From Hyalangium ruber (lineage in GTDB: Bacteria > Myxococcota > Myxococcia > Myxococcales > Myxococcaceae): a stretch of 64,000 nucleotides of DNA. The DNA lies in NCBI RefSeq assembly GCF_034259325.1, contig NZ_JAXIVS010000007.1:434001-498000 (forward strand), in the 5' to 3' direction. Shown piece by piece: positions 17,286-34,223 of the stretch. The notes under the pieces are model-generated. The model did not search any database. It worked only from the letters and a program-made list of their open reading frames with translations, and had not been told where the DNA came from. A program made the translations under genes and the position numbers. Position 1 is the first letter of the stretch; the number at the start of each line of letters is the position of its first letter.

Positions 17286-18464
17286 TCAGAAGGTGAAGTC
17301 GCGCTCCAACGTCTCCCCGCCCGCCTGCACGGTGAGGTGAGCGGTACGGGCGCCACCGGCATCCGCGCCGAGATCAAAGGAAAGCCCCTCGGGCCCCTGC
17401 GAGGGCTTGAGCGAGGGCTTTCCAGGGTTGAGGAACACCGCGGCGGTGACGGTACGGCCGGCCAGCGGCTGCACCAGCAGCCTCACACGCTGACGCTCGC
17501 GCACGAGGAGTACGCGAAAATCACGCCGCTCTTCCAGCACCTCCCGCCGCTCGGGGTGACGGGCTCCGGGACGACGAGGAACGGGAGCACTCGAGGTACG
17601 CGCGCCAGGTCCAGCGGCCCCCTCCGCCTCCAGTTCCAGCGCCTCCTCGATGGCGGTATCTCCCTCCTCGAGGGCGAGAACGGCCTGGGCACAGTCGGCG
17701 CACTTCGCGGTATGGGCTTCCATGCGGGCGCGCTCATCCACGGAGAGCAGACCAAGGTCGAAGCGCCACAGCTCATCGGAACTCAAATGGCGGCGCGGGG
17801 GCTGCTCGACGACAGCGGCGTCCGCGAGATCCGCGCGACATTCGGCACAGCTCTGCAGGTGGGCGCCGAGAGCCCCGGACTTGCCTGTCCAGGAGGCCAC
17901 CAGCTCATCGCACTCGGCTCGGGCGGAGAACCACCAGGACTGGCTGCGTTCATTCGAGTCGAGCAGGTCGCGCTCTTCTCTGCGGTGCGGGTTCAGGGGG
18001 ATGAACCAGCGGGCCCTCGGGCGGAGCGCGGCGTCAATGTTCCCGAGGGCCTGGAGAAATGAGGTTCTGCGCTCTGCCGCTTCACCCGTAAGAGATCCCT
18101 GAAGCGCTTCCCACTCACCGAGGGCGCGGGCGGCGGAGGCGATGCGATCTCGAGCGACCAGCCCGTCCATCGCGGAGGCCCGCCACATCTCGGCCTCTTC
18201 ACTGCCCTCCCCCAGCGCGACCTCGACGGCTTCCTCGGCTGCGCGGAGGAGCGTGGTCCTCAACTCCGCGGGTTTCAGACTCTGGAGCCATGTCTCGATC
18301 TGCGGTCGGGTCAGGGCGCGGAGGGAGGGCTCGACACCTTGAGTTCCTAGCCGAGCCCCACGGCGAAGGAGATCTCCCGCCGCTTCGAGCGTGCCTCCCA
18401 CGGAGGCGGATCCCCCGGTAAGTTGCTGGCGCCGGGCCTGATAACGGGAGAGTGCGTCGCTCAT
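17286..18464 (-). CDS. Soluble protein with tandem zinc-finger anti-sigma motifs
   Basis: 392 residues with no transmembrane segment. Two HxxxCxxC motifs (HLQSCAEC and HTAKCADC, about 50 residues apart) match duplicated zf-HC2/ZAS anti-sigma modules. The N-terminal 170 residues are helical and the C-terminus is beta-rich. It follows an ECF sigma gene on the same strand by 34 bp, so a cytoplasmic anti-sigma or redox-sensing role is likely. Its 3' end is 12 bp from the convergent secreted-protein gene. Confidence 0.72.
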   Translation of the reverse strand: MSDALSRYQARRQQLTGGSASVGGTLEAAGDLLRRGARLGTQGVEPSLRALTRPQIETWLQSLKPAELRTTLLRAAEEAVEVALGEGSEEAEMWRASAMDGLVARDRIASAARALGEWEALQGSLTGEAAERRTSFLQALGNIDAALRPRARWFIPLNPHRREERDLLDSNERSQSWWFSARAECDELVASWTGKSGALGAHLQSCAECRADLADAAVVEQPPRRHLSSDELWRFDLGLLSVDERARMEAHTAKCADCAQAVLALEEGDTAIEEALELEAEGAAGPGARTSSAPVPRRPGARHPERREVLEERRDFRVLLVRERQRVRLLVQPLAGRTVTAAVFLNPGKPSLKPSQGPEGLSFDLGADAGGARTAHLTVQAGGETLERDFTF

Positions 18465-18498: not shown

Positions 18499-19164
18499 TC
18501 ACTCCTTCCCCTCGGCCGCCTGCCGCAACTCGAGCAGGTACAGTCGGAGGTAGGCCTGGGCGCGGCTGACGCGCTTGTAGGAGTTGGCCACGGTGATGTT
18601 CAGGAGACGGGCGCATTCCTCGTGATCCTCCACGTCCTTGTGGTGGTAGAGGTCCCACGCTCCAGCCTCCTTGGGGTGCTCCTCCTGGAGGCGGGCGAAC
18701 GCGGCCCAGTAAAGCTCTTGTGCCTCGGAGCGCTCTTGGGTGCGGCGAGCGGTCTCCACGGCGCGAGCCACCTCGGAAGGCGGCTCCTCCATGACGTCAT
18801 CCGGATCGCTCGGAGCGGGAGCGAGGTCCTCGCGCTGACGCCGGTAGAAGTCGATGGCGACGTGCTTGACGATGCGCAGGAAGAACGTCTTGGGAGACGC
18901 GCTCTTGCCGGGCATCTGCTCGGAGACGCCGCGGAACTGCTCCAACCCGCGGTCGATGAACTTGCCCACCGCGTCCTGGAAGAGCTCGTCCGCGTCCGCG
19001 GGAGACCCGCGTTTATAACTGGCCTGGATTTTGCTAATGACGTACCGAGCAGGGCGGCCCCAGCGCTGGACGAGCGCACCGAGGGGGCCTCCGAAAGGCT
19101 CTCCAGCGGAGCGGCTACGGGCCACTTCCGCGAACAATTCGTCATCCGTGAGCTGGTCGTACAC
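18499..19164 (-). CDS. ECF-type RNA polymerase sigma factor
   Basis: 221 residues from a GTG at 19164 (no strong ribosome-binding site is visible). Region 2 signature DADELFQDAVGKFIDRG and SPKTFFLRIVKHVAIDFYRR, and region 4 ECARLLNITVANSYKRVSRAQ support an ECF sigma. It precedes the tandem-zinc-finger gene and is convergent in orientation with the other sigma/anti-sigma module. Confidence 0.82.
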   Translation of the reverse strand: MYDQLTDDELFAEVARSRSAGEPFGGPLGALVQRWGRPARYVISKIQASYKRGSPADADELFQDAVGKFIDRGLEQFRGVSEQMPGKSASPKTFFLRIVKHVAIDFYRRQREDLAPAPSDPDDVMEEPPSEVARAVETARRTQERSEAQELYWAAFARLQEEHPKEAGAWDLYHHKDVEDHEECARLLNITVANSYKRVSRAQAYLRLYLLELRQAAEGKE

Positions 19165-19347
19165 CGGAGGGACCTGGTTGCGCCGAGGGGTTCAGGAATG
19201 GCCCACCGACAGGGTGGGATTCGCATCCACGGCTCGGCAAGGTACCACGATGGCATTCCCAGGCATCCTCCGATGACGCGAAGCCCCGCATTCCGGTGAA
19301 CTGCCAGACGGGGCACGTCCAAGAGCGGGACGCGGCCGTTTTAGGAT

Positions 19348-19383
19348 TCCTGACAGAACAATCAGGGGTCCCTGAGGGGTGCC
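19348..19383. repeat. Dispersed copy of the 5.3-kb palindromic element
   Basis: This stretch shares the words TCCTGAC, TCAGG and GTCCCTGA followed by GGGGT with the first unit of the array at 5330-5366, with small insertions. It lies in the 468-bp gap upstream of the phosphatase gene. The rest of 19165-19467 shows no coding or RNA feature I can support. Confidence 0.5.
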
Positions 19384-19467
19384 TGGCGGCCTGCTCCCGG
19401 AAGAGACGGGCGAGAAAATCCAACGTCAGGAATAGGGGGAGCCGCCGTCCCTGGCAGCAACCTTTTC

Positions 19468-19611
19468 GAGCGCCCGGCCGAAGAGGCCTTACAAGCATAG
19501 GTGGTTCGACTCCACCCACCCGCACTTCCTAACTTTCATGCGGGTGTCGTCGGCGGTCCGACACTGAACGGTCAATTCAGCGCACTTCACGGCTTCCTCA
19601 CTCGGGCGCTC
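19468..19611 (+). ncRNA. Candidate Y RNA with a permuted tRNA-like fold
   Basis: Visible elements in order: outer stem strand GAGCGCCCG (19468-19476); a perfect T-arm, GGTGG-TTCGACT-CCACC (19500-19516); an acceptor-like 8-bp stem closed by a 14-nt loop (19517-19524 with 19539-19546); a D-like arm, GTCGG-CGGT-CCGAC (19549-19562); an anticodon-like arm with a 5-bp stem and 7-nt loop (19564-19580); and the returning outer strand CGGGCGCTC (19603-19611). The T-arm/acceptor half precedes the D-arm half, so the tRNA order is permuted. Known bacterial YrlA Y RNAs are tRNA mimics with a terminal stem bound by Ro and are often encoded beside the Ro gene. A Ro-like gene lies at 20434. Boundaries are estimates. 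Confidence 0.5.
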
Positions 19612-19632: not shown

Positions 19633-20340
19633 ATGTCTGCCCGCACCATCGTCATTGGCGACCTTCATGGCTGTTACGACGAGGCCATCGAACTGCTCGA
19701 CAAGGTAGGCGCCACCTCCAGCGACCGCGTCATCTTCGCCGGGGATCTCGTAGACCGAGGCCCCAAGCGGCTGGAGTGCGTCGAGCTGGCCATGCGCCAC
19801 GAGTCCATCCAAGGAAATCACGAGGAGAGCCACCTCCAGCAGCGGCACCGTCCGGACGAGCGTCTATCGCCGGACCACCTGGAGACGCGTCGTGTGCTCG
19901 AGCCCGAGCACTACGACTACCTCGCCAGCCTGCCGCTCTACATCCGCTTGCCCGAGCACAACGCCGTCGTCGTCCACGCCGGTGTGCTGCCCGGCAAGCG
20001 CATTGAGGAGCAGGACCCGTACCACCTGCTCCATGCACAGTGCGTCCTGCCCCCAGCGAAGAAGAGCTATTGGCCCTCCAAGGCCCCGGTCACCCACCGG
20101 TTCTGGACCCACCACTGGCAGGGCCCTGAGCGGGTCATCTTCGGACACACGGTCTTCGACAAGCCGCTCGTGACCGAGCATGCGGTGGGCATCGACACCG
20201 GCTGCGTGTACGGCCGTTCGCTGACCGCGGTGGTGCTCCCCTCCTGGGAGATCGTCTCGGTCAAGGCGCGGCGGTCCTACCGCGGCGGCAAGGATGTGGC
20301 GCTGTTCCCCATCCACGAAGACGTGTCCGTCTTCTCGTAA
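19633..20340 (+). CDS. PPP-family metallophosphatase
   Basis: 235 residues; ATG at 19633 preceded by GAGGTG. All calcineurin-like motifs are present: GDLHG (9-13), GDLVDRG (37-43), GNHE (61-64), HAG near 118 and GHT near 170. Relatives include PrpE/ApaH dinucleoside phosphatases, protein phosphatases and the phosphatase domain of the RNA-end-healing enzyme Pnkp. A hairpin separates it from the downstream Ro-like gene, and a candidate Y RNA ends 21 bp upstream. An RNA 3'-end healing role is attractive given the neighbours but is inference. Confidence 0.8.
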   Translation: MSARTIVIGDLHGCYDEAIELLDKVGATSSDRVIFAGDLVDRGPKRLECVELAMRHESIQGNHEESHLQQRHRPDERLSPDHLETRRVLEPEHYDYLASLPLYIRLPEHNAVVVHAGVLPGKRIEEQDPYHLLHAQCVLPPAKKSYWPSKAPVTHRFWTHHWQGPERVIFGHTVFDKPLVTEHAVGIDTGCVYGRSLTAVVLPSWEIVSVKARRSYRGGKDVALFPIHEDVSVFS

Positions 20341-20433: not shown

Positions 20434-22197
20434 ATGACGACGAAGCAGAACACCCCCATTCTCCCGGAGGCGCAGCTCGGGCCCGCCGAGCGTCTGCTCG
20501 AGCTCGTCCTGGGGGGCTCCGCGCACCTCTGGCACAACCGTCCCGGCGTGGACGTCCACGGCACCTGGCAGCCGGCGCGCCGGGGCGTCAAGGTGCTCCC
20601 GGCGAACCAGAAGCAGGTGAGCCCGGGCCTCTTCGTGCCCGCGGCGGTGAAGCTCTACCGGCAGCTGCTGGACATCTACAAGCTCAACACGGACCTGATG
20701 GCGCACTTTGCCTCGTACGCCCTCACGCAGACGGACTGGCGTGACCTGAAGGTGGCGACCTGCGCGCTGATGCTGGTGCAGGGGCACGCGGGGCAGCCGG
20801 TGCGTGAGGAGGACGGCACGGTCGCCTTCTACGACGACGACCACCGGGTGATCGGCGAGGCGATGATCCTGCACTACGAGCGCAAGTCCACGCGCATGCT
20901 CACGCCCAAGGCGGTGCTGCGAGTGGCGGAGCTGCTCGAGACGCCGGAGATCGCCCGCATGAACCGGGAGGCCGGCTTCGGCGACCCGGGCTCCAAGAAG
21001 CCGCCCATGGGCCGCTGGAAGCGGGTGGCCCAGAAGTGGCTCCAGGCCCGGGAGAAGAACCTGCCCATGCTGGAGGGCCTGGTGAAGGCCGGCTTCAAGG
21101 AGACGCTGAAGAAGATCGCCCGCAAGGCCGGCTACAGGCCGGAGTCGCAGGCCTTCTTCGAGCTGCTCGGCTGGAAGCAGAAGCAGGCGTCCGGGGGCCA
21201 CCGTCAGGTGGGGCTCGTGGGGCTGACGCTCGTCAAGCGTGAGCGGTTCGATGGGCTCTCGGAGGCGGAGATCTGCGAGTCGATCGAGACCGGGCGGCTC
21301 TCCTACAAGGAGGTGGTGGGCCGGCTGCCGAAGGACGTGGGGCTCACGCCCGCCATCATGGTCGCGCTGTTGCCGTCGCTGTCGGACAGGGACTTGCGGA
21401 TGATGACGCCGACGCTCGAGGAGCTGGGCTTGCTGTCCGAGCCCACGATTCGGGCGCGCTGGGAGAAGGCCGTGCAGACGGCGACCGACCAGCGGGCGCT
21501 CCACATCGCGAAGAACGTCCGGAGCAAGGAACTGCGCGAGAAGCTGGAGGAGGCGAGCGACAACGCCGCGCGCCTGGCCGTGGCCGAGGCGACCGCGGAG
21601 GCGGACGTGCGGGTGATGTTCCTCATCGACAAGTCCGGCTCCATGGAGGGGGCCATCGAGCAGTCCAAGGAGGCGCTCACGCGCATCCTCGCGGGCTTCC
21701 CGGTGGACAAGCTGCACATCGCGTCGTTCGACACGGTGGGTACGGTGCTCAAGCCGAAGGCACCCAGCCGGATGGCGGTGCAGCACATGCTGCAGGGCCT
21801 GAAGGCCTCGGGTGGCACCACGCACGCGGCCGCGGTGCATGCACTGCACCGGGACGGCGTGACGGTGCCGACGGAGGCGAAGCTCATCGTCATCGTCGTG
21901 GGTGACGAGGCGGGAGAGGCGGGGGACCAGTTCACCCGGGCCTTCCGCGAGTGCGGCTACACGGTGGCGGCGATGGCGCTGCTGCTGAGCGTGGCGGGTG
22001 CGCGGGGGAGCACCGTGCGCACGTGCGCGGGGCAGCTGAGGGTGCCCTTCAGTGAGGTGTCGGTGGAGCAGTTCGCGGACCCCTACCAGGTCCCGCGGGT
22101 GCTCAAGGCGCTGATGGACGCGCCGACGGCGACGGGCGCCAGCCAGTCCGGCTGGGTGGAGCGGGTGATGCGTACCCCGCTGCTGAAGGTGGCGTAG
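20434..22197 (+). CDS. Ro60/TROVE-like protein with C-terminal vWA domain
   Basis: 587 residues with GGAGGGG before the ATG. The N-terminal ~390 residues are helical and repeat-like, with segments such as LSYKEVVGRLPKDVG and a RALHIAKNVR stretch that resemble the HEAT-type ring of Ro proteins. The C-terminal vWA domain has a complete MIDAS: DKSGSM (from residue 399), GGTT (about 460) and GDE (about 490). Ro proteins thread RNA 3' ends through the ring and bind Y RNAs in RNA quality control. The N-terminal match is divergent, so TROVE is likely rather than proven; the candidate Y RNA upstream supports it. Confidence 0.6.
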   Translation: MTTKQNTPILPEAQLGPAERLLELVLGGSAHLWHNRPGVDVHGTWQPARRGVKVLPANQKQVSPGLFVPAAVKLYRQLLDIYKLNTDLMAHFASYALTQTDWRDLKVATCALMLVQGHAGQPVREEDGTVAFYDDDHRVIGEAMILHYERKSTRMLTPKAVLRVAELLETPEIARMNREAGFGDPGSKKPPMGRWKRVAQKWLQAREKNLPMLEGLVKAGFKETLKKIARKAGYRPESQAFFELLGWKQKQASGGHRQVGLVGLTLVKRERFDGLSEAEICESIETGRLSYKEVVGRLPKDVGLTPAIMVALLPSLSDRDLRMMTPTLEELGLLSEPTIRARWEKAVQTATDQRALHIAKNVRSKELREKLEEASDNAARLAVAEATAEADVRVMFLIDKSGSMEGAIEQSKEALTRILAGFPVDKLHIASFDTVGTVLKPKAPSRMAVQHMLQGLKASGGTTHAAAVHALHRDGVTVPTEAKLIVIVVGDEAGEAGDQFTRAFRECGYTVAAMALLLSVAGARGSTVRTCAGQLRVPFSEVSVEQFADPYQVPRVLKALMDAPTATGASQSGWVERVMRTPLLKVA

Positions 22198-24395: not shown

Positions 24396-25100
24396 CTACG
24401 GCGCCTCCCTGCGTGACGGTTCATGCGCCGCACGTCGCAGGGCATTGACGAGCCGATGCGCCCGGCGCGTTGTCTCCGGCTCCCGGTAACGCGGGCTCAC
24501 ACGCAGCACCCACTCCACGGCGGTGGGCAGATCCATCAAGTGCCCCGGAGAGACGTAGACGGGGCTCACGCCGCGCCGGGTACGCACCGCCATCCCAACG
24601 ACTTCTCCTCGGTGCCGGATCTCCGCCGTGGCGCCCCGCTCTGGGCCGAGATGCCCGTAGGTGCCCACCAACAGGGACTTGGCACACCCGATGGACGGAA
24701 CGCCAAAGAGCAGTCCGCCGTGGCAGGCCAATCCGAAGCGCCGCGGGTGCGCGATGCCCTGCCCATCGAAGATCAGGAGGTCTGGCTTCTGCGCCAGCTG
24801 CTCCCAGGCGGCGGCGAGCACAGGCAGCTCACGGAAGGAAAGCAGCCCTGGGATGTAGGGGAGTCGAAGCGTGACGGCCGCGCCCGCTTGCTCCAAGGGG
24901 AGCAGTGACATCGCATCGAGCACGACGACGCCTCCATAGCCAGTGATGTTCCCGCGCTCGGTGGAGATATCCGCGCCGGCGATGCGAGACACGCGCAGCT
25001 CCGCCGGAGGCCTCAGCACCAGACGCTCGCGCAAGGTGTTCTGCAGCGCCACCGCCTCCTGGGGTGTGACCTCCCAGCCATGCAGAGACTCGAGTTCCAT
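24396..25100 (-). CDS. nfi: Endonuclease V
   Basis: 234 residues. It has the family motifs: the early metal-binding Asp in AGADIS, the wedge motif PYIPGLLSFRE and the DGQGIAHPRRFGLACH segment. Endonuclease V nicks DNA, or cuts RNA in some relatives, one base beyond inosine and so repairs deaminated adenine. The inosine-forming adenosine deaminase elsewhere in the window is not obviously linked. The gene is convergent with the lipoprotein gene. Confidence 0.85.
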   Translation of the reverse strand: MELESLHGWEVTPQEAVALQNTLRERLVLRPPAELRVSRIAGADISTERGNITGYGGVVVLDAMSLLPLEQAGAAVTLRLPYIPGLLSFRELPVLAAAWEQLAQKPDLLIFDGQGIAHPRRFGLACHGGLLFGVPSIGCAKSLLVGTYGHLGPERGATAEIRHRGEVVGMAVRTRRGVSPVYVSPGHLMDLPTAVEWVLRVSPRYREPETTRRAHRLVNALRRAAHEPSRREAP

Positions 25101-25235
25101 GAACCTGCCCTCCTCACCCCCACTGTATACCCACCAGGTAGGGCGCGCTCAGCACAACGTCATGAGTAGGGAGGCAGGGTTCAGCGCGCCACACTCCTGG
25201 CGCGCCAGGCAGCCGACCAGGCAGGCAACTTGAAC

Positions 25236-27282: not shown

Positions 27283-27424
27283 GGGCGCGGAGCATACCCG
27301 CCTGGCCGACCTCCTTTCGACGAGGGCACCCAGGACGTCAGGAACCCGTCGCTCCCCACGTCCCGAGGGGCTTGGACTGGCCGCGCTCTCGTGGCATTGC
27401 TCCGAGTGAAAGGAAGTGACGGCG

Positions 27425-27670
27425 ATGGCGACCCTCAACATCACCTACAACGGGATGTCCGCGGACCTGCCGATGGAGCTGGACGGTCACGTGGCGGATG
27501 TGGACGTGCGGCGCATCGCGGTGGAGGTGGTGCGCTCCGGAGGCATGCCAGGGATGCATCTGGCCCACCTGCGAGACGACGCCTTCCAGAACTACGTCGT
27601 GGACCGCTTCCGCGGTCCGAGCGGCGACGAGCGCATCTACCTGCGCCCGAAGGTCCCCTTCGGGGCCTGA
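27425..27670 (+). CDS. Small protein of unknown function
   Basis: 81 residues; AAAGGAAG lies 8 bases before the ATG at 27425, which is preferred over the GTG at 27416 that falls inside this ribosome-binding site. The sequence begins MATLNITYNG and shows mixed alpha/beta character with no membrane segment. It starts the + strand run that leads to the tRNA array; a 39-codon ORF follows after 9 bp. Confidence 0.6.
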   Translation: MATLNITYNGMSADLPMELDGHVADVDVRRIAVEVVRSGGMPGMHLAHLRDDAFQNYVVDRFRGPSGDERIYLRPKVPFGA

Positions 27671-27838: not shown

Positions 27839-27975
27839 TTCTTGTCTCTTCGTGCTTCGTGGCTCTCTCCCCTTCCTTAATAAAGGTGGCGGAGAGAGGC
27901 CGCGCACGGAGAATCCATGCGCTTGTCAGGAAGAATTATTCGCCGCGTCTTTTCTCGATGAAAGGAGCGGTGACC

Positions 27976-28224: not shown

Positions 28225-28310
28225 GGGGATGTAGAGCGTTACGGAGACGCGCTGGCCTGTAGAGCCGGAGCCGCACGGCGGCCCACTGAGTTCAACTCTC
28301 AGCGTCCCCA
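28225..28310 (+). tRNA. tRNA-Tyr (GTA), class II
   Basis: Acceptor GGGGATG/CGTCCCC, anticodon loop CTGTAGA, T-arm CTGAG-TTCAACT-CTCAG, discriminator A. It keeps a long variable arm (GCCG/CGGC type), as bacterial Tyr tRNAs do. No CCA is encoded. First gene of the array. Confidence 0.8.
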
Positions 28311-28397
28311 CTTCACACAGTACCCAAGGCAGTGGCTTGTTCTCTGACAACTGAATCGCAGTGGTGAAGTTCGCCCGCCAATAATGGGGCGACAAAC

Positions 28398-28468
28398 GCC
28401 TCCGTAGCTCATTGGTCGAGCATCCGCCTCTTAAGCGGACGGTGAGGGTTCGATTCCCTCCGGGGGTA
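28398..28468 (+). tRNA. tRNA-Lys (CTT)
   Basis: Anticodon arm TCCGC-CTCTTAA-GCGGA, T-arm GAGGG-TTCGATT-CCCTC, discriminator A. Acceptor begins with a G-T wobble pair. 71 nt. The 87-bp gap before it holds no tRNA I can fold. Confidence 0.8.
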
Positions 28469-28480
28469 CTCGCAGCACAC

Positions 28481-28551
28481 GCGGGTGTCGTCTAGTGGCA
28501 AGACTCCGGTCTCCCATGCCGGCAACACGGGTTCGAGTCCCGTCACCCGCT
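28481..28551 (+). tRNA. tRNA-Gly (CCC)
   Basis: Acceptor GCGGGTG/CACCCGC perfect, loop CTCCCAT, discriminator T as expected for Gly. 71 nt. Confidence 0.85.
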
Positions 28552-28559
28552 TCACCCAT

Positions 28560-28631
28560 ACCGGGATCGTCTAACTGGCAGGATGGCGGGCTCTGACCCC
28601 GCAGGTGCAGGTTCAAAGCCTGCTCCCGGTG
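28560..28631 (+). tRNA. tRNA-Gln (CTG)
   Basis: Acceptor ACCGGGA/TCCCGGT, anticodon arm GCGGG-CTCTGAC-CCCGC, T-loop TTCAAAG, discriminator G as in Gln tRNAs. Confidence 0.85.
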
Positions 28632-28651
28632 CTCTGAAGTACGCAGCATAT

Positions 28652-28725
28652 TCGGTGGTAGCTCAACTGGCAGCAGCACGCGGCTGTTAACCGCGGGGTT
28701 GAGGGTTCGAATCCCTCCCACCGAG
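28652..28725 (+). tRNA. tRNA-Asn (GTT)
   Basis: Acceptor TCGGTGG/CCACCGA, loop CTGTTAA, T-arm GAGGG-TTCGAAT-CCCTC, discriminator G. Confidence 0.85.
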
Positions 28726-28736
28726 CTGACTCACAT

Positions 28737-28807
28737 GGCTTGTTCCGCCCGGGGCGGCGGCGGTCTGCAAAACCGTCTGGTGGCGGGTTCAACTCCCGCA
28801 CAAGCCT
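28737..28807 (+). tRNA. tRNA-Cys (GCA)
   Basis: Acceptor GGCTTGT/ACAAGCC, loop CTGCAAA, T-arm GCGGG-TTCAACT-CCCGC, discriminator T. The D-arm is compressed: CGCC/GGCG with a 6-nt loop and no spacer base before the anticodon stem. Confidence 0.8.
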
Positions 28808-28816
28808 TCACCTTCT

Positions 28817-28889
28817 GCCTCGTTCGTCTATCGGCATAGGACACCACACTCTCACTGTGGAAAGGCGGGTTCGACTCCCGCACGAGGTA
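28817..28889 (+). tRNA. tRNA-Glu (CTC)
   Basis: Acceptor GCCTCGT/ACGAGGT, anticodon arm CCACA-CTCTCAC-TGTGG, T-arm GCGGG-TTCGACT-CCCGC, discriminator A. Confidence 0.85.
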
Positions 28890-28905
28890 CTCGCAACACG
28901 TTTCA

Positions 28906-28981
28906 CGGGATGTAGCTCAGCTTGGACGAGAGCGCGCGCTTGGGGTGCGCGAGGTCGCTGGTTCGAATCCAGTCATCCCGA
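28906..28981 (+). tRNA. tRNA-Pro (GGG)
   Basis: Acceptor CGGGATG/CATCCCG with the C1-G72 pair usual in Pro tRNAs; anticodon arm CGCGC-TTGGGGT-GCGCG; discriminator A. Confidence 0.85.
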
Positions 28982-28990
28982 CTTCTTTCT

Positions 28991-29064
28991 CTGGGTGTGG
29001 CTCAGCTTGGTAGAGCGCACGGTTCGGATCCGTGAGGTCGCAGGTTCAAGTCCTGCCACCCAGA
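28991..29064 (+). tRNA. tRNA-Pro (CGG)
   Basis: Acceptor CTGGGTG/CACCCAG, anticodon arm CACGG-TTCGGAT-CCGTG, discriminator A. Confidence 0.85.
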
Positions 29065-29076
29065 CTCGTAGCACCA

Positions 29077-29147
29077 CGGGGTATGGCCCAATGGTAGGGC
29101 TCTCGTCTGATACGCGAGCGGTCCTGGTTCGATTCCAGGTGCCCCGA
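29077..29147 (+). tRNA. tRNA-Ile (GAT)
   Basis: Acceptor CGGGGTA/TGCCCCG, loop CTGATAC, T-arm CCTGG-TTCGATT-CCAGG, discriminator A. A C1-G72 pair is unusual for Ile. Confidence 0.8.
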
Positions 29148-29154
29148 CTGACTT

Positions 29155-29225
29155 GCTCTTGGATGCGATTGGATCGCAGCGCGGCCGTCTACCGCGTGAA
29201 CAGGGTTCGATTCCCTGCAGGAGCG
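29155..29225 (+). tRNA. tRNA-Asp (GTC), with C33
   Basis: Acceptor GCTCTTG/CAGGAGC and anticodon stem CGCGG/CCGCG pair well; the loop reads CCGTCTA, so the near-universal U33 is C. Discriminator G agrees with Asp. T-arm CAGGG-TTCGATT-CCCTG. Confidence 0.7.
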
Positions 29226-29241
29226 CTCGCAGCACCCTTTT

Positions 29242-29314
29242 GCCGCCTTTGCGTAGATGGTTCGCGCGCCTGATTGAAAAACAGGAGGACCCAGTTCGAT
29301 TCTGGGAGACGGCA
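29242..29314 (+). tRNA. tRNA-Phe (GAA), with stem mismatches
   Basis: Loop TTGAAAA gives GAA. There is one C-A mismatch in the acceptor (GCCGCCT/AGACGGC) and an A-A mismatch at the top of the anticodon stem. T-arm CCCAG-TTCGATT-CTGGG is perfect; discriminator A. Confidence 0.7.
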
Positions 29315-29331
29315 CTCTTGCTTCACCGTGT

Positions 29332-29399
29332 AGGCCGCGCTCCGGGAGCAGCTTGGACTCCAAATCCGGGCGTGCAGGGTTCAACTCCTTGGCGGCCTG
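29332..29399 (+). tRNA. tRNA-Trp (CCA), shortened D-arm
   Basis: Only 68 nt. Acceptor AGGCCGC/GCGGCCT is perfect and the loop CTCCAAA gives CCA, discriminator G. The linker bases 8-9 are missing and the D-loop is reduced to about three bases (GCTC-CGG-GAGC). Confidence 0.65.
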
Positions 29400-29403
29400 C
29401 CAT

Positions 29404-29476
29404 GCCCTTGTAGCTCAGCAGGAAGAGCACCGGTTTCGTAAACCGGGGGTCGTCGGTTCGAACCCGACCGAGGGCA
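29404..29476 (+). tRNA. tRNA-Thr (CGT)
   Basis: Acceptor GCCCTTG/CGAGGGC, anticodon arm CCGGT-TTCGTAA-ACCGG, T-arm GTCGG-TTCGAAC-CCGAC, discriminator A. Confidence 0.85.
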
Positions 29477-29496
29477 CTCGCAGTACCAAAGGTTTT

Positions 29497-29568
29497 GCTG
29501 CCGTGGCCGAGAGGTGAGGCACCTGAGCGCCACTCAGGACCATGCGGGTTCGAGTCCCGCCGGCAGCT
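29497..29568 (+). tRNA. tRNA-Gly (GCC), with C33
   Basis: Acceptor GCTGCCG/CGGCAGC, anticodon stem CCTGA/TCAGG perfect, loop GCGCCAC: anticodon GCC with C at position 33. Discriminator T fits Gly. Confidence 0.7.
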
Positions 29569-29572
29569 CCAT

Positions 29573-29643
29573 GGGCCCGTAGTTCAGCGGGAGAATTCTC
29601 GGTTTGCACCCGAGAGACCCGGGTTCGAATCCCGGCGGGTCCA
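29573..29643 (+). tRNA. tRNA-Ala (TGC)
   Basis: Acceptor GGGCCCG/CGGGTCC contains the G3-T70 wobble that is the Ala identity element. Loop TTTGCAC, discriminator A. Confidence 0.85.
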
Positions 29644-29670
29644 CTTGCTTCACTTGCTTCAGTTGTCTTT

Positions 29671-29744
29671 GGCTCCGTAGCTCAACGGATTAGAGCGCTC
29701 GGCTACGAACCGAGAGGCTGCAGGTTCGAATCCTGCCGGAGCCA
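29671..29744 (+). tRNA. tRNA-Arg (ACG)
   Basis: Acceptor GGCTCCG/CGGAGCC, anticodon arm CTCGG-CTACGAA-CCGAG (A34, expected to become inosine), discriminator A. Confidence 0.88.
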
Positions 29745-29752
29745 CTTGTCTT

Positions 29753-29826
29753 GCCCCTGTAGCTCAGTGGAACAGAGCGCACGGTTCCGAACCGTGAGGC
29801 CGCAGGTTCGATCCCTGCCAGGGGTA
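29753..29826 (+). tRNA. tRNA-Arg (CCG)
   Basis: Acceptor GCCCCTG/CAGGGGT, anticodon arm CACGG-TTCCGAA-CCGTG, T-arm GCAGG-TTCGATC-CCTGC, discriminator A. Confidence 0.85.
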
Positions 29827-29832
29827 CTCGAG

Positions 29833-29907
29833 GCTTCCGTAGCTCAGGGGATGAAGAGCAGGCGCGTCCTAAGCGCACGGTCGCAGGTTCAAATCCTGCC
29901 GGAAGCA
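29833..29907 (+). tRNA. tRNA-Arg (CCT)
   Basis: Acceptor GCTTCCG/CGGAAGC. The preferred fold gives loop GTCCTAA with U33 and anticodon CCT; the outermost anticodon-stem pair is a G-A mismatch. Discriminator A. Confidence 0.75.
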
Positions 29908-29921
29908 CAGCCAACGTTTCT

Positions 29922-29993
29922 TGCGGGGAGGGGCCGGACGCCCCACCGGGTCTCATACGCCTGAGCCACAGGGTTCGACTCCCTGCTCCGCAA
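29922..29993 (+). tRNA. tRNA-Met (CAT)
   Basis: Acceptor TGCGGGG/CTCCGCA, loop CTCATAC, T-arm CAGGG-TTCGACT-CCCTG. A paired first base and absence of three consecutive GC pairs below the anticodon loop point to elongator Met; a lysidine-type Ile tRNA cannot be excluded. Confidence 0.75.
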
Positions 29994-30001
29994 CTTCTCA
30001 T

Positions 30002-30074
30002 GCACGCCGAGCCAGCTGGAGACGGCGTCGGTCCCACATACCGATTTCGCTGGGTTCGATCCCCAGGGCGTGCA
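30002..30074 (+). tRNA. tRNA-Val (CAC), with C33
   Basis: Acceptor GCACGCC/GGCGTGC and anticodon stem TCGGT/ACCGA are perfect; loop CCCACAT has C33. Discriminator A. Confidence 0.7.
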
Positions 30075-30080
30075 CTCAAA

Positions 30081-30155
30081 GCCGGAGTAGCCCAACTTGG
30101 TAGAGGCGCCAGATCGAGAGTCTGGAGGTTGAGGGTTCGACTCCCTCTTCCGGCA
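30081..30155 (+). tRNA. tRNA with Leu anticodon GAG, class I, C33
   Basis: Anticodon arm CCAGA-TCGAGAG-TCTGG, T-arm GAGGG-TTCGACT-CCCTC, discriminator A. The variable region is only about five bases, whereas bacterial Leu tRNAs have a long arm. Position 33 is C. Confidence 0.65.
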
Positions 30156-30169
30156 CTGCAGAAATTCAT

Positions 30170-30243
30170 GCCGCGGTAGCCCAACTGGTAGAGGCACTGC
30201 ACTCAGAATGCAGCGAGTGCGGGTTCGAATCCCGCCCACGGCA
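30170..30243 (+). tRNA. tRNA with Leu anticodon CAG, class I
   Basis: Anticodon arm CTGCA-CTCAGAA-TGCAG, T-arm GCGGG-TTCGAAT-CCCGC, discriminator A. Short variable region; one C-A mismatch in the acceptor (GCCGCGG/CCACGGC). Confidence 0.7.
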
Positions 30244-30265
30244 CTTGTGAAGCTCCCGTAGTCCC

Positions 30266-30340
30266 GTCCGCGTGGCCCAATCGGGAGAGGCGGCTGGCTC
30301 AAACCCAGCTCAGGTGCGAGTTCGAACCTCGCCGCGGACA
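30266..30340 (+). tRNA. tRNA with Leu anticodon CAA, class I
   Basis: Acceptor GTCCGCG/CGCGGAC perfect, anticodon arm GCTGG-CTCAAAC-CCAGC, T-arm GCGAG-TTCGAAC-CTCGC, discriminator A. Again a short variable region instead of the class II arm. It ends 23 bp before the HNH start codon. Confidence 0.7.
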
Positions 30341-30363
30341 AAAATCAGAAAGGAAACCGTGTC

Positions 30364-30906
30364 ATGGAGACGCTGGTGTTGAGCCAGGCCTATGAGCCCG
30401 TCGCGCGTGTGGCATGGCAGCGCGCGATGATGCTCATCTGGCAGGGCAAGGTCGAGGTGGTCGAGGAGTACGAGGATCGCTTCGTCCGTTCGGTGACCCT
30501 CGAGATCAAGATGCCGTCGATCATCCGCTTCATGAGCTACTTCCGGCAGCGGCAGCGGGGCATCAAGTTCAGCCGGGACAACGTGTACATGCGTGACGGC
30601 TGCAAGTGCCAGTACTGCGGCAAGAAGGTGTCTCGGCCCGAGGCCACGTACGACCACGTGATTCCCCGCGCCCAGGGTGGCAAGACGACCTGGGAGAACG
30701 TGGTGATCGCGTGCGTGCCCTGCAACCAGAAGAAGGGCAACCGGACGCCGGCGAAGGCCGGGATGTTGCTGCGCATCACGCCGGTGAAGCCCAAGAGGCT
30801 GCCGGAGTCGCTGCACTTCACCTTCGGCTACGAGAAGGGCATGCCCATCTCGTGGCGGAAGTTCCTCCGTGACGTCGCGTACTGGCACACGGAGTTGGAG
30901 GAGTGA
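30364..30906 (+). CDS. HNH endonuclease embedded in the tRNA array
   Basis: 180 residues; AAGGA 9 bases before the ATG. A zinc-stabilised HNH fold is clear: CQYC (82-85), the DHV motif with H98 followed by PRAQGG, N112 in ENVV, CVPC (117-120) and N121 before KKG. Free-standing HNH nucleases cut DNA in most known cases; some target RNA or act in phage defence or mobility. The gene lies between tRNA-Leu(CAA) and the first Ser tRNA in the same orientation, so it probably shares the array transcript. Its target is unknown. Confidence 0.85.
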   Translation: METLVLSQAYEPVARVAWQRAMMLIWQGKVEVVEEYEDRFVRSVTLEIKMPSIIRFMSYFRQRQRGIKFSRDNVYMRDGCKCQYCGKKVSRPEATYDHVIPRAQGGKTTWENVVIACVPCNQKKGNRTPAKAGMLLRITPVKPKRLPESLHFTFGYEKGMPISWRKFLRDVAYWHTELEE

Positions 30907-30914
30907 GGCCCGGG

Positions 30915-31004
30915 TAAAGGGGGGTCACCAGAGGTGGTCCCCGCCACCGCTCCGCTCCGGAACGGAGCATCAGGTGGAGCGGGGGTGCGCCAGAGGCGGC
31001 CCCC
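30915..31004 (+). other. Structured intergenic segment with two related hairpins
   Basis: Two hairpins with the same AGA loop occur about 60 bp apart: GGGGTCACC-AGA-GGTGGTCCCC and GGGGGTGCGCC-AGA-GGCGGCCCCC. Between them is a third, GCTCCG-GAA-CGGAGC, enclosed by CCACC/GGTGG. The paired changes (CACC/GGTG versus CGCC/GGCG) suggest selection for RNA structure. It follows the HNH stop and precedes the Ser tRNAs. Confidence 0.5.
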
Positions 31005-31025
31005 ACCCGTAGAGCCTCCCCGCGC

Positions 31026-31061
31026 GCCGGCAGGCGGGTCCGCTGCTGCCGGCACCTTTTT
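31026..31061 (+). terminator. Terminator-like hairpin before the Ser tRNAs
   Basis: Stem GCCGGCA/TGCCGGC with an inner GCGG/CCGC helix, then ACC and six T. The last T abuts the first Ser tRNA, so it could equally be a processing or attenuation site. Confidence 0.5.
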
Positions 31062-31145
31062 GGAAGGTCAACGTCGGAGGCCGACGGCCCGTCTCGAAAG
31101 CGGTGCGAGTGCCAAGCGCTTGGGGTTCGAGTCCCCTGCCTTCCT
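31062..31145 (+). tRNA. tRNA-Ser (CGA), class II
   Basis: Acceptor GGAAGGT/GCCTTCC, loop CTCGAAA, long variable arm AGTGC-CAA-GCGCT, T-loop TTCGAGT. The discriminator reads T rather than the usual G, and one T-stem pair is mismatched. Confidence 0.7.
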
Positions 31146-31158
31146 TCTGTTGAAGTCT

Positions 31159-31243
31159 GGAGCGTGCGTGCCGGGTGGCCGGCAGCCTGGCTGGAAACCA
31201 GGAGAGCCCCATGGGGCTCGTGGTTCGACTCCACCTCGCTCCG
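31159..31243 (+). tRNA. tRNA-Ser (GGA), class II
   Basis: Acceptor GGAGCGT/TCGCTCC (six pairs), anticodon arm CCTGG-CTGGAAA-CCAGG, strong variable arm GAGCCC/GGGCTC, discriminator G. Confidence 0.8.
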
Positions 31244-31253
31244 TAGTTGGATT

Positions 31254-31341
31254 GGAAGAGTGAACTGGTGATGGCACCAGGCCCCGTTGCTAGCGGGTGC
31301 GGACCGGCTCCCGGTCTGAGGTTCGAGTCCTCCGCCTTCCG
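31254..31341 (+). tRNA. tRNA-Ser (GCT), class II
   Basis: Loop TTGCTAG, variable arm GACCGG-CTC-CCGGTC, T-loop TTCGAGT, discriminator G. The acceptor GGAAGAG/GCCTTCC has two mismatches at its inner end. Confidence 0.65.
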
Positions 31342-31353
31342 TATATTGGAGTT

Positions 31354-31404
31354 GCCCCCTCACCACTGCGGTTCAGCAGGCTAGAGTGCCGCACCTTCGG
31401 GGGC
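31354..31404 (+). pseudogene. Possible 5'-half tRNA remnant
   Basis: The stretch GGTTCAGCAGGCTAGAGTGCC looks like a tRNA D-arm and start of an anticodon stem (quoted motif core: GTTCAGCAGGCTAGAGT), and GCCCCC/GGGGGC could close it, but no T-arm follows. It ends 9 bp before the AAA+/RF2-like start codon. Confidence 0.25.
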
Positions 31405-31412
31405 GTTTCACC

Positions 31413-34223
31413 ATGGCGACCAGGAAGAGCGAGGACAACGAGCGACTCATCGACCGCGACCTGACCGCGCTCGCGCGGGACGGAAAGCTGCCGCCCGCGC
31501 ACGGCGTGGACTCGGCCGTGGCGGAGGTGTTGGGACTGCTCGCCCGAGGCGGCAAGCACCCACTGCTGTCCGGAGATCCGGGCGTGGGCAAGAGCGCGCT
31601 CGTCCAGGAGGTGGCCCGGCGCATCGCCGAAGGCCGCGTGGACGCGGCGCTGGCCCAATCCCGAATGGTGGAGGTGTCCGCCGCCAACATCCTGGCGCGC
31701 AGCACTCAGCGCCAGGCCGCCGAGAGCTTCGAGGAGCTGCTTGGTCACCTGAGCCGGCTCCCCTGCCCCATCGTCTACATCCGCGATTTGCCCCTGGCGC
31801 TGGGCGGGCCGCTGGCCCCCGTGGCAATTCGTGCCCTTCGCACGGGGGGCATCCGCTTCATCTTCGAGACCGAGCCCAAGCGCGTGCAGGAACTGCTGCG
31901 CGCCGATGAAGCTCTGGCCGAACGGCTCCACCTCATTCCTCTTCAAGAGCCTCCGCTGGAACGCTCCCGGTGGGTCCTTGGCCGCGTGGCCGAGGAGCTG
32001 GAGCGCGAGATGCGGCTGCCCATTGATCCGGCGGCGTGCGACCTGGCGCTGCGCCTGTCGGCCAAGTTCCTCCTGGCCCAGCGCATGCCGCGCAAGGCCA
32101 TCGAGCTGCTCAAGGAAACGGCCGCCGAGGCGGCGAGCGCGGCCCGGGACCGTGTAGGCCCCGAGGACGTACTCACCCGCTTCTGCGCCGCCACGCGCCT
32201 GCCACGCTTCGTGGTGGACGACGCGATGCCTCTGGACCTCGAGGAGACGGAGCGATTCTTCGGTGAGCGACTGCTCGGGCAGACGGATGCGGTGGCCGCG
32301 GTGCTGCGCTCGGTGGCCCTGCTCAAAGCGGGCCTGAATGACCCGCGCCGTCCGTTGGGAGTGTTCCTCTTCGCTGGTCCCACGGGCGTGGGCAAGACGC
32401 AGCTCGCCAAGCTCCTGGCCGAGTACCTCTTTGGCTCCGCCGACAGGCTGGTGCGCCTCAACATGGCGGACTTCCCCAACGACGGCGACGAGAGCGTTCC
32501 CTTCGGCGCCTCGTGGGCTCCCGCCTTGGAGACCAAGCGCGGCGAGCTGACCAACCTGCTCGACGGCAAGGTATTCACCGTGTTGCTGTTGGACGAGTTC
32601 GAGAAGGCCGCGCGAAGCGTCCACGACCGCTTCCTTCAGCTCTTCGACGAAGGCACCTTCGTCAACGGCGCTGGGGAGCAGGTCTCCTGCAACAACACAC
32701 TCATCGTGGCGACATCCAACGTCGGCGCGGAGGTCTACCGCGAGCCAGCCCTGGGCTTCGCTGGCAATCGCCGGGAGCATGAGCTGCTCAGCGAGGTGGA
32801 CCGGCGCATCACCGAAGCCTTCCGTCCGGAGTTCCTCAACCGCTTCGACGCCATCTGCCACTTCAAGCCGCTGACGAAGGTGGAAATCCGGAAGATCGCC
32901 CAGCGCGAGGTGGGCCGCGTGCTGGAGCGCGAGGGTATTCGTGCGCGTGGACTGGATGTCGAGGTAACGCCCGAGGTGGTGGACCTGCTCGTGGAGCGTG
33001 GCTACTCACCTCAATTCGGTGCGCGCTACCTGCAGCGGGAGATCGAAAAGACGCTCACCGCCGCGCTCGCGGTGGAGATCGCTCGCCGGCCGCTACGGCC
33101 CGGCACACCCGTGCGCGTGGAAGCCCGCGCTGGAAGCAAGGTGGTCGCCGTGGCCGAGCCGCTGCCTGCTCCGCGTGAGGCGACGGCGCAGCTCTCTCTG
33201 CCCACTCCGAAGGCGGCGGCCGTCAAGCGCCGGCTGGACCGCAAGTCGCTGCTGCACGAGATGGACCGGCTGGTGGGTCGAGCCCGTTCGCTCTCCATGC
33301 TCGCGGATCGGCCCCAGCTCGAGGAGCGACGCAACCAACTCCTGGCCGAGACCCAGGCCCCCAACTTGTGGGACGACCCGGAGCACGCGGCGGTCACCCT
33401 GCGAGCCTTCCGCACGGTGGAGGCACAGATCAACGAGTTGGAGCGGCTGGAACAGGCCGCCACCTTCGCGCGGCGGCTGGTGCGTGAGGCGAAGAACGAG
33501 GTGCAGCTCGCGTCCGCGGCGAAGCAGGTGGAGGACTTGGCGCGTGAGGTGCAAATGGCCGAGGCGCTCAATGCGTCGGGCGCCACCGCGAATGACAACG
33601 AGGCGCTGGTGGACATCTGCGCCAGCGACTCGATGGAGGCCCAGGACGCATGGGTGCAAGAGCTGGCAACCATGTACCTCGGCTGGGCACAGAAGCGCGG
33701 CTACGAAGCCATGCTGGTGGCTGAGGCGGAGGATCCCGCCCGCGTGGTCGTGCGCATCGCGGGGCCTGGCGCCTACGGCTTCCTGGCAGGCGAGGCCGGC
33801 ATGCACCGGCGTATCGAGGACGAGAAGCGACAGCGCGCTTATGTCCGTGTGCATCGGGGCGGATTGCCCGAGAACCTGGTGAACCTGGAGGTGGAGGGTC
33901 GCCCCGTGAAGCAGCATGAGGGCTCCTTCCTGGAACGCGTGCGCACGGAGGTGACCGTGAAGGACTCCTCCACGGGTCGGATGCTCACCCTGACGGGCTC
34001 GGGCGAGCTGGATGAGATGAAGGACCTCGCCGCACGCGTGGTGTCCGGCCAGGGCGCCAGCACCGATGAGGCTCGCCGGTACTACGTGGCCCGTGGTGCA
34101 CGGGTGGAGGACCCTCGTACCGGCGCCGGGACCCCTCGCGTGAAGGACGTACTGCGCGGCGACCTGGACCTCTTCATCGCGGCCTGGATCTCTCGTCCCC
34201 CTCCCGAACCGGTCACCACCTGA
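31413..34223 (+). CDS. ClpA/ClpB-like double AAA+ ATPase fused to a GGQ-less release-factor-2-like module
   Basis: 936 residues from the ATG at 31413. D1: Walker A GDPGVGKS (54-61) but a degenerate Walker B ending IRDL (120-126). D2: Walker A GPTGVGKT (322-329), Walker B LLLDEFEK (391-398), TSN sensor (434-436), arginine-finger region FLNRF (474-478) and GAR sensor 2 (536-538), as in ClpA/ClpB. Residues about 608-927 align in order with RF2: LWDDPE (652-657), AQDAWVQELATMYLGWAQ (743-760), GPGAYGFLAGEAGMHR (784-799) and the tail RYYVARGARVEDPRTG (889-904). The GGQ peptide-release loop and the SPF stop-codon motif are both absent. A role at the ribosome using unfoldase power is likely inference. 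It ends the tRNA-array gene run. Confidence 0.85.
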   Translation: MATRKSEDNERLIDRDLTALARDGKLPPAHGVDSAVAEVLGLLARGGKHPLLSGDPGVGKSALVQEVARRIAEGRVDAALAQSRMVEVSAANILARSTQRQAAESFEELLGHLSRLPCPIVYIRDLPLALGGPLAPVAIRALRTGGIRFIFETEPKRVQELLRADEALAERLHLIPLQEPPLERSRWVLGRVAEELEREMRLPIDPAACDLALRLSAKFLLAQRMPRKAIELLKETAAEAASAARDRVGPEDVLTRFCAATRLPRFVVDDAMPLDLEETERFFGERLLGQTDAVAAVLRSVALLKAGLNDPRRPLGVFLFAGPTGVGKTQLAKLLAEYLFGSADRLVRLNMADFPNDGDESVPFGASWAPALETKRGELTNLLDGKVFTVLLLDEFEKAARSVHDRFLQLFDEGTFVNGAGEQVSCNNTLIVATSNVGAEVYREPALGFAGNRREHELLSEVDRRITEAFRPEFLNRFDAICHFKPLTKVEIRKIAQREVGRVLEREGIRARGLDVEVTPEVVDLLVERGYSPQFGARYLQREIEKTLTAALAVEIARRPLRPGTPVRVEARAGSKVVAVAEPLPAPREATAQLSLPTPKAAAVKRRLDRKSLLHEMDRLVGRARSLSMLADRPQLEERRNQLLAETQAPNLWDDPEHAAVTLRAFRTVEAQINELERLEQAATFARRLVREAKNEVQLASAAKQVEDLAREVQMAEALNASGATANDNEALVDICASDSMEAQDAWVQELATMYLGWAQKRGYEAMLVAEAEDPARVVVRIAGPGAYGFLAGEAGMHRRIEDEKRQRAYVRVHRGGLPENLVNLEVEGRPVKQHEGSFLERVRTEVTVKDSSTGRMLTLTGSGELDEMKDLAARVVSGQGASTDEARRYYVARGARVEDPRTGAGTPRVKDVLRGDLDLFIAAWISRPPPEPVTT

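Follow-up and report, generated by a model that had tools for sequence, protein, structure and literature searches.

A candidate Y-RNA-like RNA predicted to fold as a whole tRNA in circularly permuted order, beside the gene of a putative Ro60-like ring protein in Hyalangium ruber

Introduction

Permuted tRNA genes of algae and archaea carry the 3′ half before the 5′ half and yield functional tRNA products. Among bacterial noncoding RNAs, Salmonella YrlA is described, in the available portions of two papers, as a circularly permuted tRNA mimic (PMC11472068, PMC8394870); its tRNA-like domain consists of D, T and acceptor arms according to the available part of one of them (PMC8394870), and the accessible text of a third records its authors' suggestion that YrlA may competitively inhibit an anticodon nuclease (PMC7790460). 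The tRNA arrays of phages are, in the part of the source that is available, proposed to resist anticodon nucleases (PMC10264068).

Here, we describe an RNA element in a 64,000-nucleotide stretch of Hyalangium ruber DNA, the whole of which we call the window, together with its relatives and the genes around it. Among the titles and abstract openings of the open literature, a body of text that does not extend to the primary YrlA papers, we found no recognisable description of this RNA family.

Structure of the RNA

The RNA is flanked by a divergent sigma-factor gene and a gene for a phosphoesterase (Table 1). Its parts follow one another as T-arm, acceptor 3′ strand, hairpin loop, acceptor 5′ strand, D-arm and anticodon arm, and the architecture is that of a tRNA cut in the variable loop, with the acceptor end joined and the cut hung on an outer stem. 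A sequence-only reading of the window had claimed a permuted T-arm, a loop-closed acceptor stem and D-like and anticodon-like arms inside such a stem, and both the covariation reported below and the MFE fold bear this out: the energy of the window RNA is −62.6 kcal/mol, against −44.2 ± 3.7 for dinucleotide shuffles (z −5.05; 0/200 as good). The nine base pairs which that reading gave to the outer stem are all found, and one G·U pair in the MFE structure brings them to ten. In the window copy, positions 34–36 (19571–19573) are GTC and position 33 is G.

The opposite strand of 19468–19611 folds equally well (z −5.10), and the plus strand was chosen because of the T-loop sequence, the gene order, the promoter motif and the covariance model, which gives 116.7 bits on the plus strand and 27.7 on the minus strand. 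At the gathering score, Rfam has no family for the window RNA, and the matches at E up to 10 are chance-level rows with no Y RNA or tRNA among them; this absence says little since TROVE-linked YrlA-type loci, run as a control, likewise gave no Y RNA match.

Table 1. Features of the locus, in window coordinates
Feature	Position	Strand	Basis
Protein with zf-HC2-like stretch, possible anti-sigma factor	17286..18464	-	20 bits, below 22.2 cut-off
ECF-type sigma factor, divergent from RNA	18499..19164	-	sigma70-ECF 40.7 bits, just under 42.9 cut-off
Promoter-like motif (same as next row), upstream of sigma gene	19328..19354	-	motif search
Promoter-like motif GTCAGGA[AT]-N13-15-CGTCC, 17 nt before RNA	19425..19450	+	motif search
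Y-RNA-like RNA, circularly permuted complete tRNA-like body	19468..19611	+	folding, covariation (36 relatives), model R1 116.7 bits
Outer stem 5′ strand (putative Ro-binding)	19468..19488	+	pairs with 19591-19611; conservation
Conserved ACAAGC motif 3′ of outer-stem 5′ strand	19491..19496	+	conservation in relatives
T-arm: 5-bp stem, TTCGACT loop; GGTGG-TTCGACT-CCACC	19500..19516	+	MFE fold
Acceptor stem closed by hairpin loop, 3′ strand first; CACCCGCA...TGCGGGTG	19517..19546	+	fold, covariation
D-like arm, GG in loop	19549..19562	+	fold, covariation
Anticodon-like arm, 5 bp + 7-nt loop; CTGAA-CGGTCAA-TTCAG	19564..19580	+	fold; class A cells 100% paired
Outer stem 3′ strand, conserved GGC..TC..CACTCGGGCGC	19591..19611	+	pairs with 5′ strand
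Calcineurin-like phosphoesterase, ApaH / Pnkp-phosphatase-like	19633..20340	+	profile matches
Divergent Ro60-like ring protein, HEAT-type N-terminal domain + vWA	20434..22197	+	vWA profile, predicted fold
Promoter-like motif, 300 nt before tRNA array	27925..27950	+	motif search
Array, 26 tRNA genes	28225..31341	+	tRNA calls; conserved downstream of Ro-like gene in relatives

Relatives and covariation

A total of 79 loci were fetched, the window included, and 74 could be oriented; the other five were dropped because they gave no hit to the protein motif that served for orientation. In 52 of the 74 loci, a search for exact motifs, CACTCGGG[CT][GA] with ACA[ACT]GC, which diverged copies escape, recovered RNAs next to the Ro-like gene, 79 in all and 74 of them distinct, and the conservation of ACA[ACT]GC and CACTCGGG among them is partly built in because both belonged to the search pattern. 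By the same search, 22 of the 74 loci have no RNA near the Ro-like gene, and most of those genomes have copies elsewhere. A motif of the ACA[ACT]GC type is also present in distant relatives and in a jumbo-phage contig. The copies lie close to the genes that follow them, 24 of the 79 being placed 21–30 nt before the phosphatase and 53 within 400 nt before Ro.

The distinct RNAs sort by structure into class A (36 RNAs, with a CUGA..UCAG arm), a group of 14 whose arm is CUGG..CCAG, 21 further RNAs that have a T-arm and three that have none. Class A consists of the RNAs that match CTGA[ACT]..[AGT]TCAG, and its anticodon arm is present by definition because the pattern demands it; pairing at 31–39 is not forced. 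Within class A (n = 36), the linker from the ACA[ACT]GC motif to the T-arm is 0–3 nt long, 94.3% of the pair cells hold standard pairs and 16 of the 41 pairs have changed on both sides. Covariation reaches 0.203 against 0.093 in shuffles (0/500 as high), and when partners are slid out of register the paired cells fall to 32–51%. Changes on both sides affect six of the eight pairs of the acceptor stem; the D-arm is the weakest helix (82.2% paired), partly, we think, as a result of misaligned rows. The copies outside class A were aligned from 34 of the 35 T-arm-bearing RNAs, L035_0 being left out because it is without a D-arm, and they are 97.2% paired, with two-sided changes at 15 of 34 pairs. 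Both of these expectations of the sequence-only reading, stems conserved next to the Ro-like gene and compensatory changes in relatives, are thus borne out. Judged by the frequency of the majority base, the outer stem (0.94–0.95; mean 0.94 over 19468–19496) ranks with the most conserved elements of the RNA, the T-arm being at 0.92 and the ASL stem at 0.93.

Some loci depart from the common arrangement. The Archangium-type copies L071, L072 and L107 keep the outer stem and have no T-arm. A second Ro-like gene of the same genome as the window, on contig C27 (L023, 7622–7918), is preceded by two permuted tRNA-like RNAs and has no phosphatase, and in L035 (9864–10502), four tandem RNAs stand before one Ro-like gene, one of them with a long variable arm resembling that of serine tRNA.

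tRNA-likeness and the anticodon loop

Once un-permuted, 57 of 71 bodies were called tRNA by ARAGORN, compared with 0 of 71 in the native order and 26 of 1420 controls in which the acceptor and T-arm were kept and the rest was shuffled. The window copy gives a complete tRNA body when un-permuted. Its anticodon-like arm had been singled out as an extra element for a Y RNA, and rightly so: by the same test, the arm is found in 48 of 71 RNAs of the Ro-like-linked family and in 0 of 14 YrlA-type RNAs beside TROVE genes, the 14 coming from phages and from the phylum and one of them (L043) lying beside a gene below the TROVE cut-off. The anticodon arm sets many RNAs of the family apart from these 14 YrlA-type RNAs.

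Among the 33 class A loops of 7 nt, a count that leaves out three loops of 6 nt, Y32 is kept in 32, U33 in 29, a purine at 37 in 28 and A38 in 27, and positions 34–36 hold 19 different triplets. The retention of U33 and A38 relative to positions 34–36 is significant by Fisher tests that ignore relatedness (p 1e-8 and 2e-14); in class B, U33 is often absent. Parsimony on the Ro-like gene tree gives 9, 11, 10 and 10 changes at positions 34–37, where third codon positions have a mean of 2.5 and a 95th percentile of 7. Linker and hairpin-loop columns are nearly as fast, reaching 9–10 changes, and the triplet therefore evolves like free sequence in a constrained loop. We weighed positive selection on the triplet and do not claim it, the linker and hairpin-loop rates being almost equal.

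Some bodies resemble particular tRNAs, for example through the GUU anticodon arms of Myxococcus-type copies. The acceptor loops are variable, with no conserved CCA, and of the marks of a functional tRNA (CCA at the acceptor end, U33 and a conserved anticodon), the RNAs show no CCA, a G33 in the window copy and a set of 19 triplets among 33 loops. We also tried, for some class B RNAs, an anticodon stem paired across the outer stem, with the break inside the anticodon loop, and set it aside as many score no better than shuffles; all five such pairs are present in four RNAs only (L023_1, L028_1, L035_1 and L075_1; shuffle p 0.02–0.06), and this pairing stands as a possibility only.

The Ro-like protein

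The RNA was said to be followed, on its own strand, by a phosphatase gene and a Ro/TROVE-like gene, and the positions of both were confirmed. The second name survives in part: the predicted fold is Ro-like by Foldseek and VIA-align, and the protein is not TROVE by sequence, no profile matching it as such. Its sole profile matches are to vWA. TROVE (PF05731) matches neither the window protein nor 10 distant relatives, is absent from the genome itself and exceeds the cut-off in 0 of 60 relatives and in 4 of 195 genomes of the phylum. No sequence similarity to solved Ro60 structures could be detected, profiles searched against the PDB returning essentially only vWA domains, or nothing.

The model of the whole protein is of modest quality (pLDDT 73, pTM 0.44). 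With Foldseek against the PDB, Ro60/TROVE structures take ranks 1–6 over 518–567 columns (at least five of the top six and at least six of the top ten). VIA-align matches the whole protein to Ro60 with Z about 13 over 402–424 residues at 8–10 Å rmsd and ranks isolated vWA domains above it; because one domain fills that list, the N-terminal domain was folded alone. Modelled in this way, the N-terminal 391 residues reach pLDDT 85.5 and pTM 0.61, and the top two Foldseek matches are TROVE structures (probability 0.99, E 0.017–0.021), with a third Ro entry seventh at 0.77 and nearly all other rows below 0.3. In the predicted structure, a HEAT-type ring is followed by vWA, in a fold similar to that of Ro60. 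On its modelled fold, we take the protein to be a likely remote homologue of Ro60; its sequence does not place it in TROVE. In the same phylum, L210, L211 and L043 are loci at which YrlA-type permuted RNAs adjoin TROVE or weakly TROVE-like genes.

Of 60 relatives, 21 have the Ro-like protein, one of them by a vWA-only match, and the protein has a second copy in its own genome; its named carriers include Myxococcus, Corallococcus, Archangium, Pyxidicoccus, Hyalangium, Virgisporangium, MAGs of other groups and jumbo-phage contigs. Across the 195 genomes of the phylum, the profile search gave some match at E ≤ 0.001 in 93 and a long match in 76 (counted from the listing), and the class A covariance model finds the RNA in 75. 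The two coincide closely: 74 genomes have both the RNA and a long match, two have the gene only (G160 and G077), one has the RNA only (G031) and 118 have neither. Genus g15 is mixed, with both in three genomes and neither in four. A genome may hold up to six RNA matches, some far from the Ro gene, and at 7 of 20 dispersed places (L258–L260, L262, L267, L272 and L273), a phosphatase lies just downstream, the distance from RNA to start being 19–33 nt where the start codon is clear; place L261 reaches the contig end, and its coordinates are unreliable.

In jumbo phage Rctr197k, the same Ro-like family is found at the end of a 20-tRNA array, and the family adjoins tRNA arrays on the jumbo-phage contigs L207 (about 4030–4790) and L221. 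On L207, 14 tRNA calls lie beside the family member, and several tRNA-like RNAs have the motif CCUACA[AC]GC, some of them apparently in the ordinary D-anticodon-T order.

Promoter motif and tRNA array

The sigma gene has a homologue in 47 of the 74 loci. The window has two occurrences of the strict promoter-like motif, one ahead of the RNA and one, on the opposite strand, ahead of the sigma gene. Where class A loci have a GTCAGG-N-CGTC motif, it mostly lies 43–46 nt before the RNA; of the 74 loci, 51 have the promoter motif ahead of either the first element or Ro, against 0 of 1480 shuffles, and it is present at 11 of 19 dispersed copies, against 0.4% of shuffles. In the 10.8-Mb genome, a slightly wider form of the strict motif has three matches, all in this region, and the reversed control has two. 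The third strict-motif match (27337–27363) stands before a small unannotated ORF (27425–27667) without a Pfam match.

The tRNA array covers nearly all amino acids and starts 6 kb after the Ro gene. At least 16 relatives have DNA-homologous arrays on the strand of the Ro gene and downstream of it, about 4–24 kb away as taken from coordinates; the distance is about 36 kb in G148 and about 100 kb in G147. The neighbourhoods of 18 Ro-like loci, taken up to 8 kb on each side, contain no tRNA array, which is consistent with these larger distances. A looser pattern of the motif, used without shuffle control, lies within 600 nt before the first tRNA in 10 of 14 array loci of relatives.

Other genes of the region may be mentioned. 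Directly 3′ of the array, 31386–34220 encodes a ClpA/ClpB-like AAA protein fused to a release-factor PCRF domain, the start of which adjoins the array in L291 and L292 too; an RNase J-family gene (34385–36022) adjoins the fusion gene, and an Endonuclease V gene (24399–25130) lies between the Ro-like gene and the array.

Discussion

The structure and conservation of the RNA, its co-occurrence with the gene, the Ro-type fold and the shared promoter motif are supported by computation. The explanation that we favour, and consider probable, is that of a Y-RNA-like RNA with an outer stem bound by a Ro60-like ring and an inner mimic of a whole tRNA, working in a tRNA-stress system. The RNA would be expressed as a separate noncoding RNA, and its outer stem would be bound by the divergent ring protein encoded 0.8 kb downstream. 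The inner part, with acceptor, T, D and anticodon arms in circularly permuted order, would mimic a whole tRNA and may recruit or gate a protein that recognises tRNA by its shape, the RNP most likely presenting an anticodon arm to be bound by tRNA-acting enzymes. The ECF-type sigma factor, the RNA, the phosphatase, the Ro ring and the spare tRNA array could then act together when tRNAs are damaged or scarce. We favour this explanation because of the fold, the covariation, the recurrence of the RNA in 52 of 74 loci, the conservation of the outer stem, the precedent of Salmonella YrlA as a permuted mimic, the co-occurrence, the tRNA calls of un-permuted bodies, the Foldseek ranks, the placement of the copies and the motif with the sigma gene, and the three Archangium-type copies, which keep the outer stem without the T-arm, also count for it. 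Counted against it are the lack of a Ro60/TROVE sequence match, the pTM of 0.44, the VIA-align rmsd of 8–10 Å, the N-terminal E-value of 0.017, the 22 of 74 loci without a nearby RNA, the genome-wide motif count of three against two in the control, the G33 of the window copy and the position of copies in gene leaders, where regulation in cis would fit as well.

The anticodon arm itself may be only structural and complete the L-shape for a general tRNA-binding effector such as PNPase or a modification enzyme, the triplet drifting neutrally. This is quite conceivable, if short of probable: the triplet changes hardly faster than the fastest other unpaired columns, the CUGA/UCAG stem is invariant with pair 31–39 covarying, and features of the D- and T-arms are kept, but the geometry of the loop seems to matter, given how well class A keeps U33 and A38 compared with positions 34–36 (p 1e-8 and 2e-14). 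The arm could instead be bait, shown by the Ro-like RNP to anticodon nucleases (host toxins or the weapons of prey or phages) that would bind or cut it in place of tRNA, or whose cutting would be sensed, with the phosphatase tidying the ends and the spare array replacing lost tRNAs. This idea is tempting, and Y32, U33 and A38 are kept in class A loops while 34–36 vary over 19 triplets, positions 34–37 change 9, 11, 10 and 10 times against a codon-third mean of 2.5, a Pnkp-like phosphatase is present at the locus, the arrays of 10 of 14 relatives share the motif and YrlA is, in the available part of the source, a possible competitive inhibitor of an anticodon nuclease (PMC7790460). However, linker and hairpin-loop columns are nearly as fast, so free drift explains the variability of the triplet; U33 is often absent in class B and is absent in the window copy; and no nuclease is known to act on this RNA. 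We regard bait as rather unlikely and do not favour it over a structural role of the arm. A broader version, in which the Ro ring presents whole-tRNA mimics with a range of anticodons to bait or sense anticodon-cutting enzymes and forms one ECF-sigma regulon with the RNA-end phosphatase and the spare tRNAs, a bacterial tRNA-damage defence island with relatives beside jumbo-phage tRNA arrays, is in our judgement unlikely.

Two further readings concern the RNA as a whole. A leader acting in cis on the phosphatase and Ro mRNAs, perhaps with Ro binding as the means of control, would also fit because two genes have copies in their 5′ leaders (24 of 79 lie 21–30 nt ahead of the phosphatase start and 53 of 79 no more than 400 nt ahead of Ro), but dispersed copies have neither gene nearby, several of them with the promoter motif 33–52 nt upstream, and some Ro-like genes have no such RNA in their leader, and we find this distinctly doubtful. 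That the RNA is a permuted tRNA gene, processed and rejoined into a translating tRNA, could draw on the acceptance of 57 of 71 un-permuted bodies by ARAGORN and on bodies resembling particular tRNAs, such as those with GUU arms in Myxococcus-type copies. It is nevertheless very improbable: the outer stem and flanking motifs match the tRNA part in conservation, the T-arm is missing from three copies, the acceptor loop is without a conserved CCA, position 33 is not always U and triplets differ between close relatives.

If the favoured explanation of a Ro-bound tRNA mimic holds, this would be a branch of Y RNAs that keeps the whole tRNA, with a signature of arm and loop, beside spare tRNAs and an RNA-end phosphatase, which makes the idea of tRNA guarding or monitoring directly testable; the host genera include the cultivable Myxococcus and Corallococcus. 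The Ro60 superfamily would also widen beyond the reach of sequence profiles.

In comparison with the permuted tRNA genes of algae and archaea, the order of the halves is alike, but here the outer stem and the closed acceptor point to a mimic. With YrlA-type Y RNAs (Salmonella YrlA, PDB 6CU1, and the Ro-linked RNAs of actinobacteriophages), the RNA shares the outer stem and the permuted T-arm, acceptor hairpin and D-arm, as well as its place beside a gene for a Ro-type ring, here Ro-like by predicted fold only; unlike them, it has an intact anticodon arm (48/71 vs 0/14), a different outer-stem sequence, a protein partner that TROVE does not recognise, and a phosphatase and an ECF-type promoter. 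The locus also resembles the Salmonella rsr-yrlBA-rtcBA RNA repair operon, as the available text describes it (PMC7790460), in combining a Ro protein, a tRNA-like Y RNA, RNA-end enzymes and stress-type control; that operon is activated by RtcR and has RtcA and RtcB, whereas the parts identified here are an ECF-type sigma factor and an ApaH/Pnkp-like phosphatase. Finally, spare-tRNA arrays are shared with phages, and jumbo phages put the same Ro-like family beside such arrays; the phage arrays, in the portion of the source available (PMC10264068), consist of tRNAs in ordinary order, unlike the Ro-associated mimics proposed here.
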